From IMG/VR virus record IMGVR_UViG_3300011115_000853, positions 1 to 25,469 of that record: a stretch of 25,469 nt of DNA. One strand, 5' to 3'. Position 1 is the first letter of the stretch; each line of letters starts with the position of its first letter. Below the pieces are notes generated by a model. The model saw nothing but the letters and a program-made list of their open reading frames with translations. It did not search any database and was not told the DNA's origin. Shown here one piece after another: positions 17,937 to 20,854 of this stretch. This DNA comes from a virus. Position numbers and translations under genes: made by a program.

Positions 17937-18196
17937 TGCCTGACCCATCCCACCTCCCCTACCGACCCATGACCATTATCCGACCCCACACCATGCCCCG
18001 CTTCTGGTGGCTCGTCCCTTGGGCTTACGCCCGGACGCTGCACCGCGCCGCCAACGCCCTCCGCGCCCTGTCCGACAAGCAGGACGATACGATTGCGCTT
18101 CAGGCCAGCATCATCAACGAGCAGAAGGACGACATTCAGTACCTTCAGCGTCGCATCCTCGACCTCGAGGACACCCTCGGAGGGCTCCAGAAATGA
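17936..18196 (+). CDS. Small coiled-coil protein with hydrophobic patch
   Basis: This 86-residue protein has a Pro-rich N terminus, a short aromatic stretch (PRFWWLVPWAYARTL) and a C-terminal coiled coil (QASIINEQKDDIQYLQRRIL). The start at 17936 overlaps the upstream stop (TAATG); MTIIRP at 17969 is an alternative start. The aromatic stretch is too short for a normal membrane span but could bind the membrane surface. No family recognised. It overlaps the next gene by ATGA. Confidence 0.5.
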   Translation: MPDPSHLPYRPMTIIRPHTMPRFWWLVPWAYARTLHRAANALRALSDKQDDTIALQASIINEQKDDIQYLQRRILDLEDTLGGLQK

Positions 18197-18477
18197 GCCA
18201 GTTCAAACACCTCGACGGCATGGTCGCCCTGTTGTCCGAGATCTACGAGATCAACGAGCGGGTCATGACCGGCGACATCTGCTCCGCGAAGGCCGCCATC
18301 GCCTCGGGCCGGATGAAGAAGCTGCTGAACCACTACCACGAAGCCCTGCACGAGGACGGCGCCACTAAGGTCTCGCTCCAGGCATACGTCGCCGCCGGCG
18401 GCTGGGTCGGCATCACCTACTCTTACGACATCGACGGCTTCGAGGTCGCCGGATCGCAAGTTCCGAGACGCGTATGA
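18193..18477 (+). CDS. Hypothetical protein, 94 aa
   Basis: No family is recognised. The N-terminal two thirds are helical (DGMVALLSEIYEINERVMTG, then SGRMKKLLNHYHEALHEDG) and the end is beta-type (GGWVGITYSYDIDGFEVAGS). It is translationally coupled to both neighbours by ATGA overlaps. Codon bias matches the surrounding genes. Confidence 0.55.
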   Translation: MSQFKHLDGMVALLSEIYEINERVMTGDICSAKAAIASGRMKKLLNHYHEALHEDGATKVSLQAYVAAGGWVGITYSYDIDGFEVAGSQVPRRV

Positions 18478-18728
18478 GCTACTACGAGAACCGAATCAAA
18501 GCCCTTGAACAAAAGGTAGCCGAGATGGCAAAGCGAGAACGCATGAAGGCCATCCCTGTTGAAGCCCAACTGCTTGACAGCATCGCTCGCCTCAAGGCCG
18601 AGGTCGAGCGGCTCCGCAAGGCCGGGGATGCGATGCTTCCATTCTTTATTTATCCTCCTTATGAAAAAGGAAGTCATAAAGCCGTTTTAAATTGGAACGC
18701 CGCCAAGGAGGGCAAGCCGAGCGTATGA
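18474..18728 (+). CDS. Small coiled-coil protein, paralogue A
   Basis: This 84-residue protein has a long coiled coil (MSYYENRIKALEQKVAEMAK; then LKAEVERLRKAGDAM, about residues 40-54), a short variable AT-rich-coded centre (LPFFIYPPYEKGSHKAVL) and the ending WNAAKEGKPSV. The coil core and the ending are shared, almost base for base, with the gene at 20397, while the centre is different. The layout recalls small Ea22-type accessory proteins of lambdoid phages. No biochemical function can be assigned. It overlaps the endolysin start (ATGA at 18725). Confidence 0.6.
   Translation: MSYYENRIKALEQKVAEMAKRERMKAIPVEAQLLDSIARLKAEVERLRKAGDAMLPFFIYPPYEKGSHKAVLNWNAAKEGKPSV
18591..18630 (+). repeat. Direct repeat A1, copy in gene at 18474
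   Basis: This 40-nt stretch encodes LKAEVERLRKAGD and matches 20490-20529 with a single base change (GCC against GCT). Sequence on either side is unrelated, so the ends of the repeat are sharp. Confidence 0.9.
18692..18716 (+). repeat. Direct repeat B1, copy in gene at 18474
   Basis: This 25-nt stretch encodes the WNAAKEGK ending and is identical to 20585-20609. Together with repeat A1 it frames a 61-nt AT-rich centre that has no match in the second gene copy. Confidence 0.9.
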
Positions 18729-19168
18729 AGCGCCCCTTCTCCATCGTCGCCCTGCTGCTCCTTGGCTTCAACGCCGCCGCCGCCTCTGACGCCAACCTGC
18801 TCGAAGCCATCGCTTACGTCGAAAGCGGATGCAACCGCAAGGCCATCGGCAAGGCCGGTGAGCGCGGGATGTATCAGGTCGGCGAGGCCGCGTGGAAGGA
18901 CGCCGAGGAACGCCTCAAGGCCGAAGGCCACTACCGCTTCCCCTGGTCCAAGTGGCGGGACGCGACCGCCCAGGACATGATCGCGGCGACCCACCTCCGC
19001 CGCATCCGGGACAACTTCAAGCGCATCGGCATCCCCGCCCCGCTTCCCGAGCAGATCGCGCTGGTCTGGAACCTTGGCTGGACGGCGGCCCGCAACCGCG
19101 AGTTCCGCCCGAACGACTACGCCCTCCGCGTCGGCGCTCTTTTCCGCTCGACCCAGCTCAAACGCTGA
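18725..19168 (+). CDS. Secreted lytic transglycosylase endolysin
   Basis: This 147-residue protein should cleave the glycan strands of peptidoglycan at lysis. It begins with a signal peptide (MKRPFSIVALLLLGFNAAAA), so it is probably exported by the Sec pathway. The lysozyme-like/SLT fold signature follows at once: LLEAIAYVESGCNRKAIG, with catalytic Glu33 in VES, then GERGMYQVGEAAWKD, the counterpart of the G-x-x-G-L-x-Q motif. The later segment LVWNLGWTAARN matches the family's third helix region. The C terminus is basic. ATG at 18725 overlaps the upstream stop. The gene sits 1.7 kb downstream of the holin with unrelated small genes between. Confidence 0.85.
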   Translation: MKRPFSIVALLLLGFNAAAASDANLLEAIAYVESGCNRKAIGKAGERGMYQVGEAAWKDAEERLKAEGHYRFPWSKWRDATAQDMIAATHLRRIRDNFKRIGIPAPLPEQIALVWNLGWTAARNREFRPNDYALRVGALFRSTQLKR

Positions 19169-19182
19169 CAAGGGTCTTACCT

Positions 19183-19647
19183 ATGGCTCATCTCATCGTG
19201 GCAATCGACCCTGGCGTGAACGGAGGCATCTGCTGGTCGGTCGACGGTGAGGAAGTCACCTGCGAGAAGATGCCCGGCACCGACGTCGAGGTCTGTCAGC
19301 TGCTCGCCTCCCTCTCCTTCAAGGCCAAGGACGTCGAACTCTTCCTCGAGGAGCCTCCCCTGTTTGCCGGCAAGAACATCCCCGGCTCGGCCATCGGCAA
19401 ACTGATGTGGAACACCGGCGTCCTCTACGGCGCCGCCGTCGCCATGGGCTGGCGTATCCACCGCATCCGCCCCGCCATCTGGCAGAAGGCCCACACTGTC
19501 GGCAAGAAAGGCGAACGCTCTACGACTGAGTTTAAGAATGCTTTGAAGGCTAGGGCTGCCGAACTGTTCCCCAACGTCGACGTCACCCTCTGGAACGCCG
19601 ACGCCCTCCTGATCTACGACGCCGCCACCCGCCGCGCCATCAACTAA
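19183..19647 (+). CDS. RuvC-like Holliday junction resolvase
   Basis: This 154-residue nuclease has the RNase H-type fold of RuvC and probably resolves branched phage DNA before packaging. It starts with the first catalytic strand IVAIDPGVNGG (Asp9), has the acidic strand VELFLEEPP (Glu56/57), and ends with WNADALLIYDAATRR (Asp140 and possibly Asp146). The spacing of D, E and D fits RuvC-like enzymes. The middle contains a basic helix (GKKGERSTTEFKNALKAR) for DNA binding. It lies between endolysin and the recombination genes. The ATG follows the endolysin stop by 14 nt. Confidence 0.85.
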   Translation: MAHLIVAIDPGVNGGICWSVDGEEVTCEKMPGTDVEVCQLLASLSFKAKDVELFLEEPPLFAGKNIPGSAIGKLMWNTGVLYGAAVAMGWRIHRIRPAIWQKAHTVGKKGERSTTEFKNALKARAAELFPNVDVTLWNADALLIYDAATRRAIN

Positions 19648-19656
19648 CCCTCTCCC

Positions 19657-19884
19657 ATGAAGAAAGACTCCCTCAAACCTTCCGCTGAGTACCGCATCAT
19701 CGCGGACTCGTCCTACATCATCCTCCCCGACCAGAAGGTCGCCCGCCTGCTCACGCCCACCGTGCGCAACGGCGTGACCTACTACAACCTGTTCGTCCCT
19801 GGCTATACCCGGATGTCCCTCGCCGACATCGAGGCCACCATCAAGGCCGGCGAAGTCACGAAGGCCGAACCGTCCGCCAAGTAA
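19657..19884 (+). CDS. Hypothetical protein, 75 aa
   Basis: This small protein is not recognised. It is beta-rich, with EYRIIADSSYIILPDQKVAR, GVTYYNLFVPGYTRM and a final helix (SLADIEATIKAGEVTKAE), a plan common in small phage proteins with a compact beta domain. It lies 9 nt after the resolvase and 9 nt before the ERF recombinase, so it may be part of the recombination operon. The leader is CTCTCCC with no Shine-Dalgarno sequence. Confidence 0.55.
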   Translation: MKKDSLKPSAEYRIIADSSYIILPDQKVARLLTPTVRNGVTYYNLFVPGYTRMSLADIEATIKAGEVTKAEPSAK

Positions 19885-19893
19885 TTTCCCACC

Positions 19894-20400
19894 ATGAGCA
19901 CCACGCCCAACAAAGACAAAGCAATCATCGAGGCCGACAAGGCTTACATGAAGACCATGAACCCCAAAACCGCAACCGCCGCCCTGGTCGCCGCTCTCGC
20001 CGAGCTCGACAACGTTAAGGCCAACAAGATCGTGAAGGCAAACTTCACCGCGAAGTACGTCTCCCTCGACGCGCTGCTCGACGCCGTGAAGCCCGTCCTC
20101 CTCGACCACGACCTCGCCCTGATTCAGACTCTCGTCAGCCAGGAGGGCAAGATCGGCGTCTCGACCGCTTTTCTCCATACCTCTGGAGAGCGCTTCGACT
20201 TTGGGACTATTCTCATGAAAGCCGACGGCCTGACCGCGCAGCAGGTCGGCGGACTTGTGACCTATGCTCGCCGGATGTCCATCAGTACCGCATGCGGCAT
20301 TTCGGTCGACCTCGACGACGACGGCTCCGCGGCCTCTGGCTTGCGTTCTGCGGCTGTTTCTAACGTCACCCCTACTACCCCTCGCCCCCTTACCCGATGA
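19894..20400 (+). CDS. erf: ERF-family single-strand annealing protein
   Basis: This 168-residue protein anneals complementary single strands during phage recombination. The ERF signature is clear: YVSLDALLDAVKPVLLDHDL (about residues 55-74), GVSTAFLHTSGERFDFG (about 88-104) and the hallmark GLTAQQVGGLVTYARRMSIS (112-131) followed by ACGISVDLDDDG. A helical N terminus and a short disordered tail (TPTTPRPLTR) complete it. The PDDEXK exonuclease encoded at 21987 is the natural partner, making single strands for ERF. The stop overlaps the next start as ATGA (20397). Confidence 0.95.
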   Translation: MSTTPNKDKAIIEADKAYMKTMNPKTATAALVAALAELDNVKANKIVKANFTAKYVSLDALLDAVKPVLLDHDLALIQTLVSQEGKIGVSTAFLHTSGERFDFGTILMKADGLTAQQVGGLVTYARRMSISTACGISVDLDDDGSAASGLRSAAVSNVTPTTPRPLTR

Positions 20401-20618
20401 ATGATGTCAAACGATACACCGCAGCCGGTTCTGGCGTAATGAGGACTGACGAAAAAGGTGGGTATGTAAATTACTCCGACTATCTTGAACTCAAGGCCGA
20501 GGTCGAGCGGCTCCGCAAGGCTGGGGATGAAATGCATCGAGCCATTAAAGTTTCTGACCCCATACTTGATTGGAAGATTGAACTTTGGAACGCCGCCAAG
20601 GAGGGCAAGCAGTCGTGA
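20397..20618 (+). CDS. Small coiled-coil protein, paralogue B (Ea22-like layout)
   Basis: This 73-residue protein begins MNDVKRYTAAGSGVMRTDEK with a following GGYVNYSDYLEL, an N-terminal pattern seen in Ea22-type accessory proteins of lambdoid phages. Then comes LKAEVERLRKAGDEM, a different centre (HRAIKVSDPILDWKIEL) and the shared end WNAAKEGKQS. The coil core and end match the gene at 18474 almost base for base. Overlaps with ERF (ATGA) and with the next gene (GTGA at 20615) show tight coupling. Function unknown. Confidence 0.6.
   Translation: MNDVKRYTAAGSGVMRTDEKGGYVNYSDYLELKAEVERLRKAGDEMHRAIKVSDPILDWKIELWNAAKEGKQS
20490..20529 (+). repeat. Direct repeat A2, copy in gene at 20397
   Basis: Second copy of the 40-nt repeat found at 18591-18630, with one mismatch. 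Confidence 0.9.
20585..20609 (+). repeat. Direct repeat B2, copy in gene at 20397
   Basis: Second, identical copy of the 25-nt repeat at 18692-18716. The centre between A2 and B2 is 55 nt, 6 nt shorter than in the first gene, so the reading frame is kept. Confidence 0.9.
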
Positions 20619-20854
20619 GCGACCCCAAGCCCTTCGACCCTTTCGACCCGGTCGGCGCCGCCATGGCCGCCATGCATCAGGCCAACCTCCTCGCCGCCAA
20701 GGATGCCCGCATCCTTCAGCTTGAGGAACGCCTGGAACGCCTCCGCGAGGCCGGCGACGACATCTGGTACTGCGTCCGCCACGCCCAGACCGTCAACCCG
20801 CAGGAACTCATCGAAGCCATCGCCAACTGGCAGGAGGCCCGCAACGATGGCTGA
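20615..20854 (+). CDS. Small coiled-coil protein, paralogue C
   Basis: This 79-residue protein (GTG start overlapping the previous stop) has the same plan as the genes at 18474 and 20397 but is diverged: coil ILQLEERLERLREAGDD, a centre (IWYCVRHAQTVNPQELIEAI) and the end ANWQEARNDG. The R-L-R-x-A-G-D core and the Trp near the end are kept. The N terminus is Pro/Asp-rich (MSDPKPFDPFDPVGAAMAAM). No function can be assigned. It overlaps the next gene by 8 nt. Confidence 0.55.
   Translation: MSDPKPFDPFDPVGAAMAAMHQANLLAAKDARILQLEERLERLREAGDDIWYCVRHAQTVNPQELIEAIANWQEARNDG

Follow-up and report, generated by a model that had tools for sequence, protein, structure and literature searches.

The window analysed here, an IMG/VR virus record of 25,469 bases with a GC content of 0.626, contains two small genes that raise the question of how two coding sequences can be nearly identical in two short stretches and show no significant similarity in their remaining parts. 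Gene A (18474..18728) encodes 84 amino acids and gene B (20397..20618) encodes 73 amino acids; both are open and in frame and both, as well as every other feature of the window given below, lie on the plus strand. The genes share a 40-nt core patch, located at 18591..18630 in gene A (LKAEVERLRKAGD) and at 20490..20529 in gene B, with one GCC/GCT mismatch that is synonymous. They also share a 26-nt tail patch (18692..18717 in gene A and 20585..20610 in gene B), which encodes (W)NAAKEGK, contains the motif AAGGAGG, and is identical in both genes. The original prediction had described both stretches; the first is found as described, and the second is indeed identical, however, it measures 26 nt and not the 25 nt given. 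About 4e-7 exact 26-nt pairs are expected in 25 kb of the window's composition (hand calculation), so the tail-patch match is not a chance event. Between the patches lie the exchangeable AT-rich centres, which are 61 nt long in gene A (18631..18691, GC about 0.32) and 55 nt long in gene B (20530..20584, GC about 0.38), well below the GC content of the window. As predicted, the two centres are dissimilar (shuffle p = 0.15) and differ in length by a multiple of three, namely 6 nt, and the N-terminal parts of the two proteins differ as well (shuffle p = 0.33).

Locus A lies between two conserved genes. The left neighbour (18193..18477) has 74-89% nucleotide identity in relatives, and the right neighbour (18725..19168), an SLT transglycosylase/lysozyme (PF01464), has 72-79% and begins within the ATGA at 18725..18728, where the stop of gene A overlaps the next start and which forms an exchange border. 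The flanking genes are syntenic in eight relatives (72-89% nucleotide identity), and the N-terminus and centre of gene A are different every time. Shuffle z-scores of -1.5 to 3.9 place the N-part and centre near or little above chance against these eight relatives; gapped identity was dropped for this comparison, as it is inflated by gaps. The tail of gene A is 88-100% identical in the same relatives. Downstream are a RuvC-like Holliday junction resolvase (phrog_1770, 19183..19647), an Erf single-strand annealing protein (phrog_2324, PF04404, 19894..20400), gene B, and g20615 (20615..20854), a diverged gene with the same layout (LERLREAGD...NWQEAR). The Erf stop overlaps the start of gene B in an ATGA (20397..20400) that marks the left end of the inserted gene, and the gene B stop overlaps the start of g20615 in a GTGA (20615..20618) that marks its right end. 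Six relatives without gene B have g20615 directly after Erf with an ATGA at the join, and gene B is therefore a cleanly added gene with an RTGA overlap at each end. To call the pair a duplicated gene, as the original prediction did, is misleading: the locus of gene A is a standing one, gene B is an addition that relatives do not have, and the N-terminus and centre of each occur elsewhere in other combinations. Separate acquisition of the two genes is a better reading than a simple duplication.

Searching IMG/VR by protein and by pattern gave, after parsing, at least 144 members of this family, with membership defined by a W-x-A-A-K-E-G-K end and an L-K-A-E-V-E-R-L-(R/T)-K-A-G-D core. The 144 members cluster into 80 unrelated centre types and 104 N-modules. 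Each consists of an N-part, a core patch, a centre, and a tail patch, sometimes with extra internal patches; the centres are 14-31 residues long and are AT-rich across the family (GC 0.49 versus 0.59 for their loci, p = 1e-22). The family, which comes from environmental phage sequences, is one of small phage-only proteins built from interchangeable parts. Among isolate phages there are at most weak N-module matches for gene B and none for a common centre. The tail-patch pattern has 18 matches in 84,980 species genomes of bacteria and archaea, none with the family core, so this search identified no provirus or host. Pfam, PHROGs, and PADLOC profiles matched neither A nor B with confidence, and 20 family members compared with PHROGs gave nothing beyond weak, scattered matches. 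Genome content was counted in the 50 carrier contigs longer than 20 kb. A terminase related to that of the window is present in 31 of these (best match 35-88% amino acid identity) and none is detectable in 19; the mean tail-patch identity in those 19 is about 0.98, which matches that of close relatives.

The search of relatives with the constant flanks yielded many unrelated centres, in agreement with the cassette that had been predicted, and the similarity breaks sharply at the flank borders; the gradual divergence across the whole gene that was to speak against a cassette is not seen. The centres are exchangeable as proposed, however, exchange is not limited to them, because the N-terminal half is exchanged too. 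One centre is found on up to ten N-modules (centre 0) and one N-module on several centres. The 129 pairs that have the same centre (85% nucleotide identity or more) and different N-modules share just 10-52 nt upstream of the centre, which is the core patch. In the 63 pairs that have the same N-module and different centres, the shared stretch on the left reaches up to 468 nt (L198/L219); their similarity ends no more than 11 nt after AGD and resumes no more than 4 nt before W, followed by a tail of 20-36 nt. Across the family, the breaks are located inside the patches or at patch ends. More than one tail type accompanies 23 of the 29 recurrent centres and more than one core type accompanies 11, and therefore the crossovers fall inside both patches. 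Homology is present at both borders of the exchanged pieces, which is a feature of relaxed homologous recombination. A 141-nt tract of gene A (18588..18728) is 100% identical to contig 3300011115_000819 (L032) and comprises core, centre, and tail as one exchanged unit. Its left border is just before the core patch and its right border is at the ATGA overlap, and outside it the two loci are unrelated on either side. Additionally, a centre related to that of gene B sits on another N-module in L125.

These observations bear on two other accounts of the pattern. In one, the flanks are kept because the protein needs its coiled coil and tail, and the centres, never exchanged, have diverged rapidly because selection on them is weak or diversifying. 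The patches do code for a plausible coiled coil and for a helical tail whose Trp is invariant, but identical centres occur on unrelated N-termini, including the perfect 141-nt tract, and the synonymous sites of the patches are nearly fixed, unlike the other codons of the same genes and the neighbouring genes. The shared tracts already contradict this account, which is very improbable and whose sole rescue would be chimeric contigs. That metagenome assembly produced the mosaics as chimeras, by joining sequences at a repeated patch, is itself scarcely credible. The relatives are all metagenome contigs, and short repeats can give misjoins, however, the patches are mostly 24-40 nt long, the same combination occurs in several samples (e.g. 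L023, L026, L040, L058), and both neighbours of locus A are from the same phage lineage in the eight relatives around a different interior, so a chimera would need two joins back to one genome.

The conservation of the patches was followed at the codon level in the subset of members found solely through a synonymous-degenerate tail pattern. Both GCC codons of the tail are present in 39 of 39 members (background 42%), as are AAG, GAG, and the final AAG (39/39 each). Elsewhere in the patches, GGG is used in 36/39 members (background 0.17) and GAT in 35/37. Compared in the same nine phages, codon identity is 0.956 in the tail patch, where it covers five columns only, versus 0.66-0.70 at the amino acid-invariant sites of five neighbouring genes. 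The near fixation of synonymous codons indicates that the patches are conserved as DNA. A role of the patches in translating the next gene could add to this DNA-level constraint. The start of the next gene overlaps the stop of the family gene (RTGA) in 138 of 143 members, with the AAGGAGG of the tail mostly 9-13 nt upstream of that start. Both features would suit a tail patch kept constant chiefly because it provides the ribosome-binding site and the coupled start of the overlapping gene, with exchange being incidental. This is unlikely, as a Shine-Dalgarno-like motif was found at just 6 of the 43 window starts examined (a few of these coordinates are not on a start codon), two of which are the tails themselves. 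Furthermore, fixation is just as strong in the GCC GCC that precedes the motif and in the core patch, at which no gene starts. Initiation in the window's phage is, by the same 6/43 count, seemingly largely independent of Shine-Dalgarno motifs.

The exchange itself is probably homologous, takes place between phages at the conserved patches, and would be driven by phage annealases, as judged from gene content and sequence. The exchanging phages encode such proteins: Erf is found in the window, and an Erf or RecT-like annealase in 38 of the 50 carriers (Erf in 25 and RecT-like in 13 others, six of the RecT-like matches being below the curated cut-off), a frequency that describes the carriers. Neither of these two annealase types, the ones searched for, was detected in the remaining 12 contigs, which may be partial. 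The minimal pairing segment is reported to be 23-27 nt for Red beta and 31-34 nt for RecA (PMC3945230). The exact tail-patch runs of unrelated members have a median length of 24 nt; in the core patch, the median of the exact runs between members is 15 nt, below the minimal length quoted for Red beta. The presence of annealases in most carriers, together with tail runs near the pairing length of Red beta, makes annealase exchange the best explanation. In the proposed mechanism, a phage single-strand annealing protein (Erf here, RecT-like elsewhere) would pair the 24-40-nt patches in mixed infections or in recombination with the DNA of resident phages. Crossovers at the patches would then swap N-modules, centres, or whole genes with the reading frame kept; the patches would stay alike from phage to phage through frequent exchange, and the centres would stay unlike through diversifying selection.

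The patches might instead be where a dedicated site-specific system (shufflon-, integron-, or DGR-like) acts, so that centres are switched within a single phage lineage. Such a system would account for short fixed sequences that border variable segments, and tandem copies are present in some contigs (L102 has three tails). However, the 50 carrier contigs contain no reverse transcriptase, no serine recombinase, and two tyrosine integrases/recombinases, a silent store of centres was not seen in an unsystematic look, and the breaks vary within the patches (10-52 nt) as homologous exchange predicts. A site-specific system is therefore quite improbable. Two particular candidates were rejected on the enzyme counts, a diversity-generating retroelement (reverse transcriptase in 0/50 carriers) and a shufflon or invertase (serine recombinase in 0/50 and tyrosine recombinase in 2/50).

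The preferred mechanism, annealase-driven exchange, has a precedent in the relaxed homologous recombination performed by phage Rad52-like annealases (PMC3945230), which it resembles in the homology at the mosaic borders, the occurrence of Erf or RecT in most carriers, and patches close in length to the shortest segment paired by Red beta. It differs from the temperate coliphages of that study in that the borders are inside one gene family, the same two patches are used repeatedly, and the phages are mostly without a tyrosine integrase. Domain mosaicism of phage proteins, in which fragments are common to otherwise unrelated proteins, is described as recent and ongoing in PMC10684548. There it is best documented for tail proteins, lysins, and replication proteins; a term search of that paper gave nothing on a family of small coiled-coil proteins whose DNA joints are fixed.

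The closest described analogue of the A/B family is lambda Ea22 and the Ead_Ea22 family (IPR025153; PMC10834534), whose ea22 genes are mosaic in Stx phages (PMC10834534). In both, a small phage protein combines a short N-part with a coiled coil and a C-terminal part that is exchanged, a likeness that for A/B is an analogy from predicted structure and sequence exchange, and both are mosaic between phages in an accessory-gene region. Ea22 is a tetramer in solution and influences lysogeny, features that belong to the Ea22 side of the comparison; no lambdoid context or lysogeny link is known for the A/B family. Unlike Ea22, the A/B family has its variable part between two constant patches that are fixed at synonymous sites, and it is far more diverse, with 80 centres. 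The Ead_Ea22 signature had no Pfam match for A or B (E up to 1), nor for B and the L032 relative (E up to 5). The N-terminal 39 residues of a Salmonella Skatevirus 'Eae' protein (LPST10 ARK07811.1) resemble the N-module of gene B (about 49%, E 7e-3), however, this protein has neither the core patch nor the WNAAKEGK tail, and it has no Pfam match.

By structure prediction, gene A is expected to form a helix at residues 3-59, a loop, and a short helix at 67-78 (pLDDT 83.5), and gene B two short strands followed by helices at 26-53 and 55-68 (pLDDT 80.9); overall, the predictions have pLDDT values of 81-84 and pTM values of 0.41-0.47. The coiled-coil core has the consensus LKAEVERL-R/T-KAGD and the constant tail is WNAAKEGK. 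In the models the variable centre spans the turn together with the last part of the first helix and the first part of the second, which makes a rod with a variable tip plausible. The constant rod and tail would carry a variable helical-hairpin tip, and on the basis of variability and fold prediction this tip might contact a target in the host or in a rival phage, which is a weaker suggestion.

The terminase and portal of the window are closest by bit score to those of Verrucomicrobia phage P8625 among the matches listed, and the next best portal match among those listed is from an Akkermansia phage. The likely host therefore belongs to the Verrucomicrobiota. A further reading, offered tentatively and at less than even confidence, is that the patches are kept by selection on the DNA, and not on the protein alone, as standing exchange joints through which a phage community, probably of Verrucomicrobiota, shares a pool of tips and N-modules. 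If true, such a pool would work as a shufflon at the level of the population, with no recombinase dedicated to it. In phage mosaicism, the borders usually noted are those between entire genes or large domains; the joints here are within one gene family, are short and fixed, have been reused in over 100 combinations, and bear codon use that marks conservation at the DNA level. Homology-driven module exchange in nature can thereby be tested quantitatively, and the family draws attention to a class of small, highly variable phage proteins that probably contact host or rival-phage factors.

Several individual contigs have further features. The terminase is present twice in G031 (the L140 contig) and Erf is present twice, in opposite orientation, in G005 (the L031/L033 contig); these doublings are terminal repeats or assembly artefacts. 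Contig 3300020044_007518 (L102/L003) features a tandem array of at least 3-4 family genes, each of which starts on the RTGA overlap of the preceding tail. Near-copies of the tail patch at L034 2690, L005 609, and L169 39 (minus strand) end genes that lack the Trp and in part also the core, so other genes too are capped by the tail alone. A recombinant gene in L131 (3300037493_004584, around 604-632) combines a g20615-type N-terminus (MSQPDFNPFDPISAAMGAMH...) with the core of the family and with a centre that other members also have. Long N-parts (e.g. L074, L025, L051) contain internal copies of the CTCAAGGCCGAGGTCGAGCGG patch, with the same exact 21 nt in 25 of 41, and these copies suggest chains of modules.
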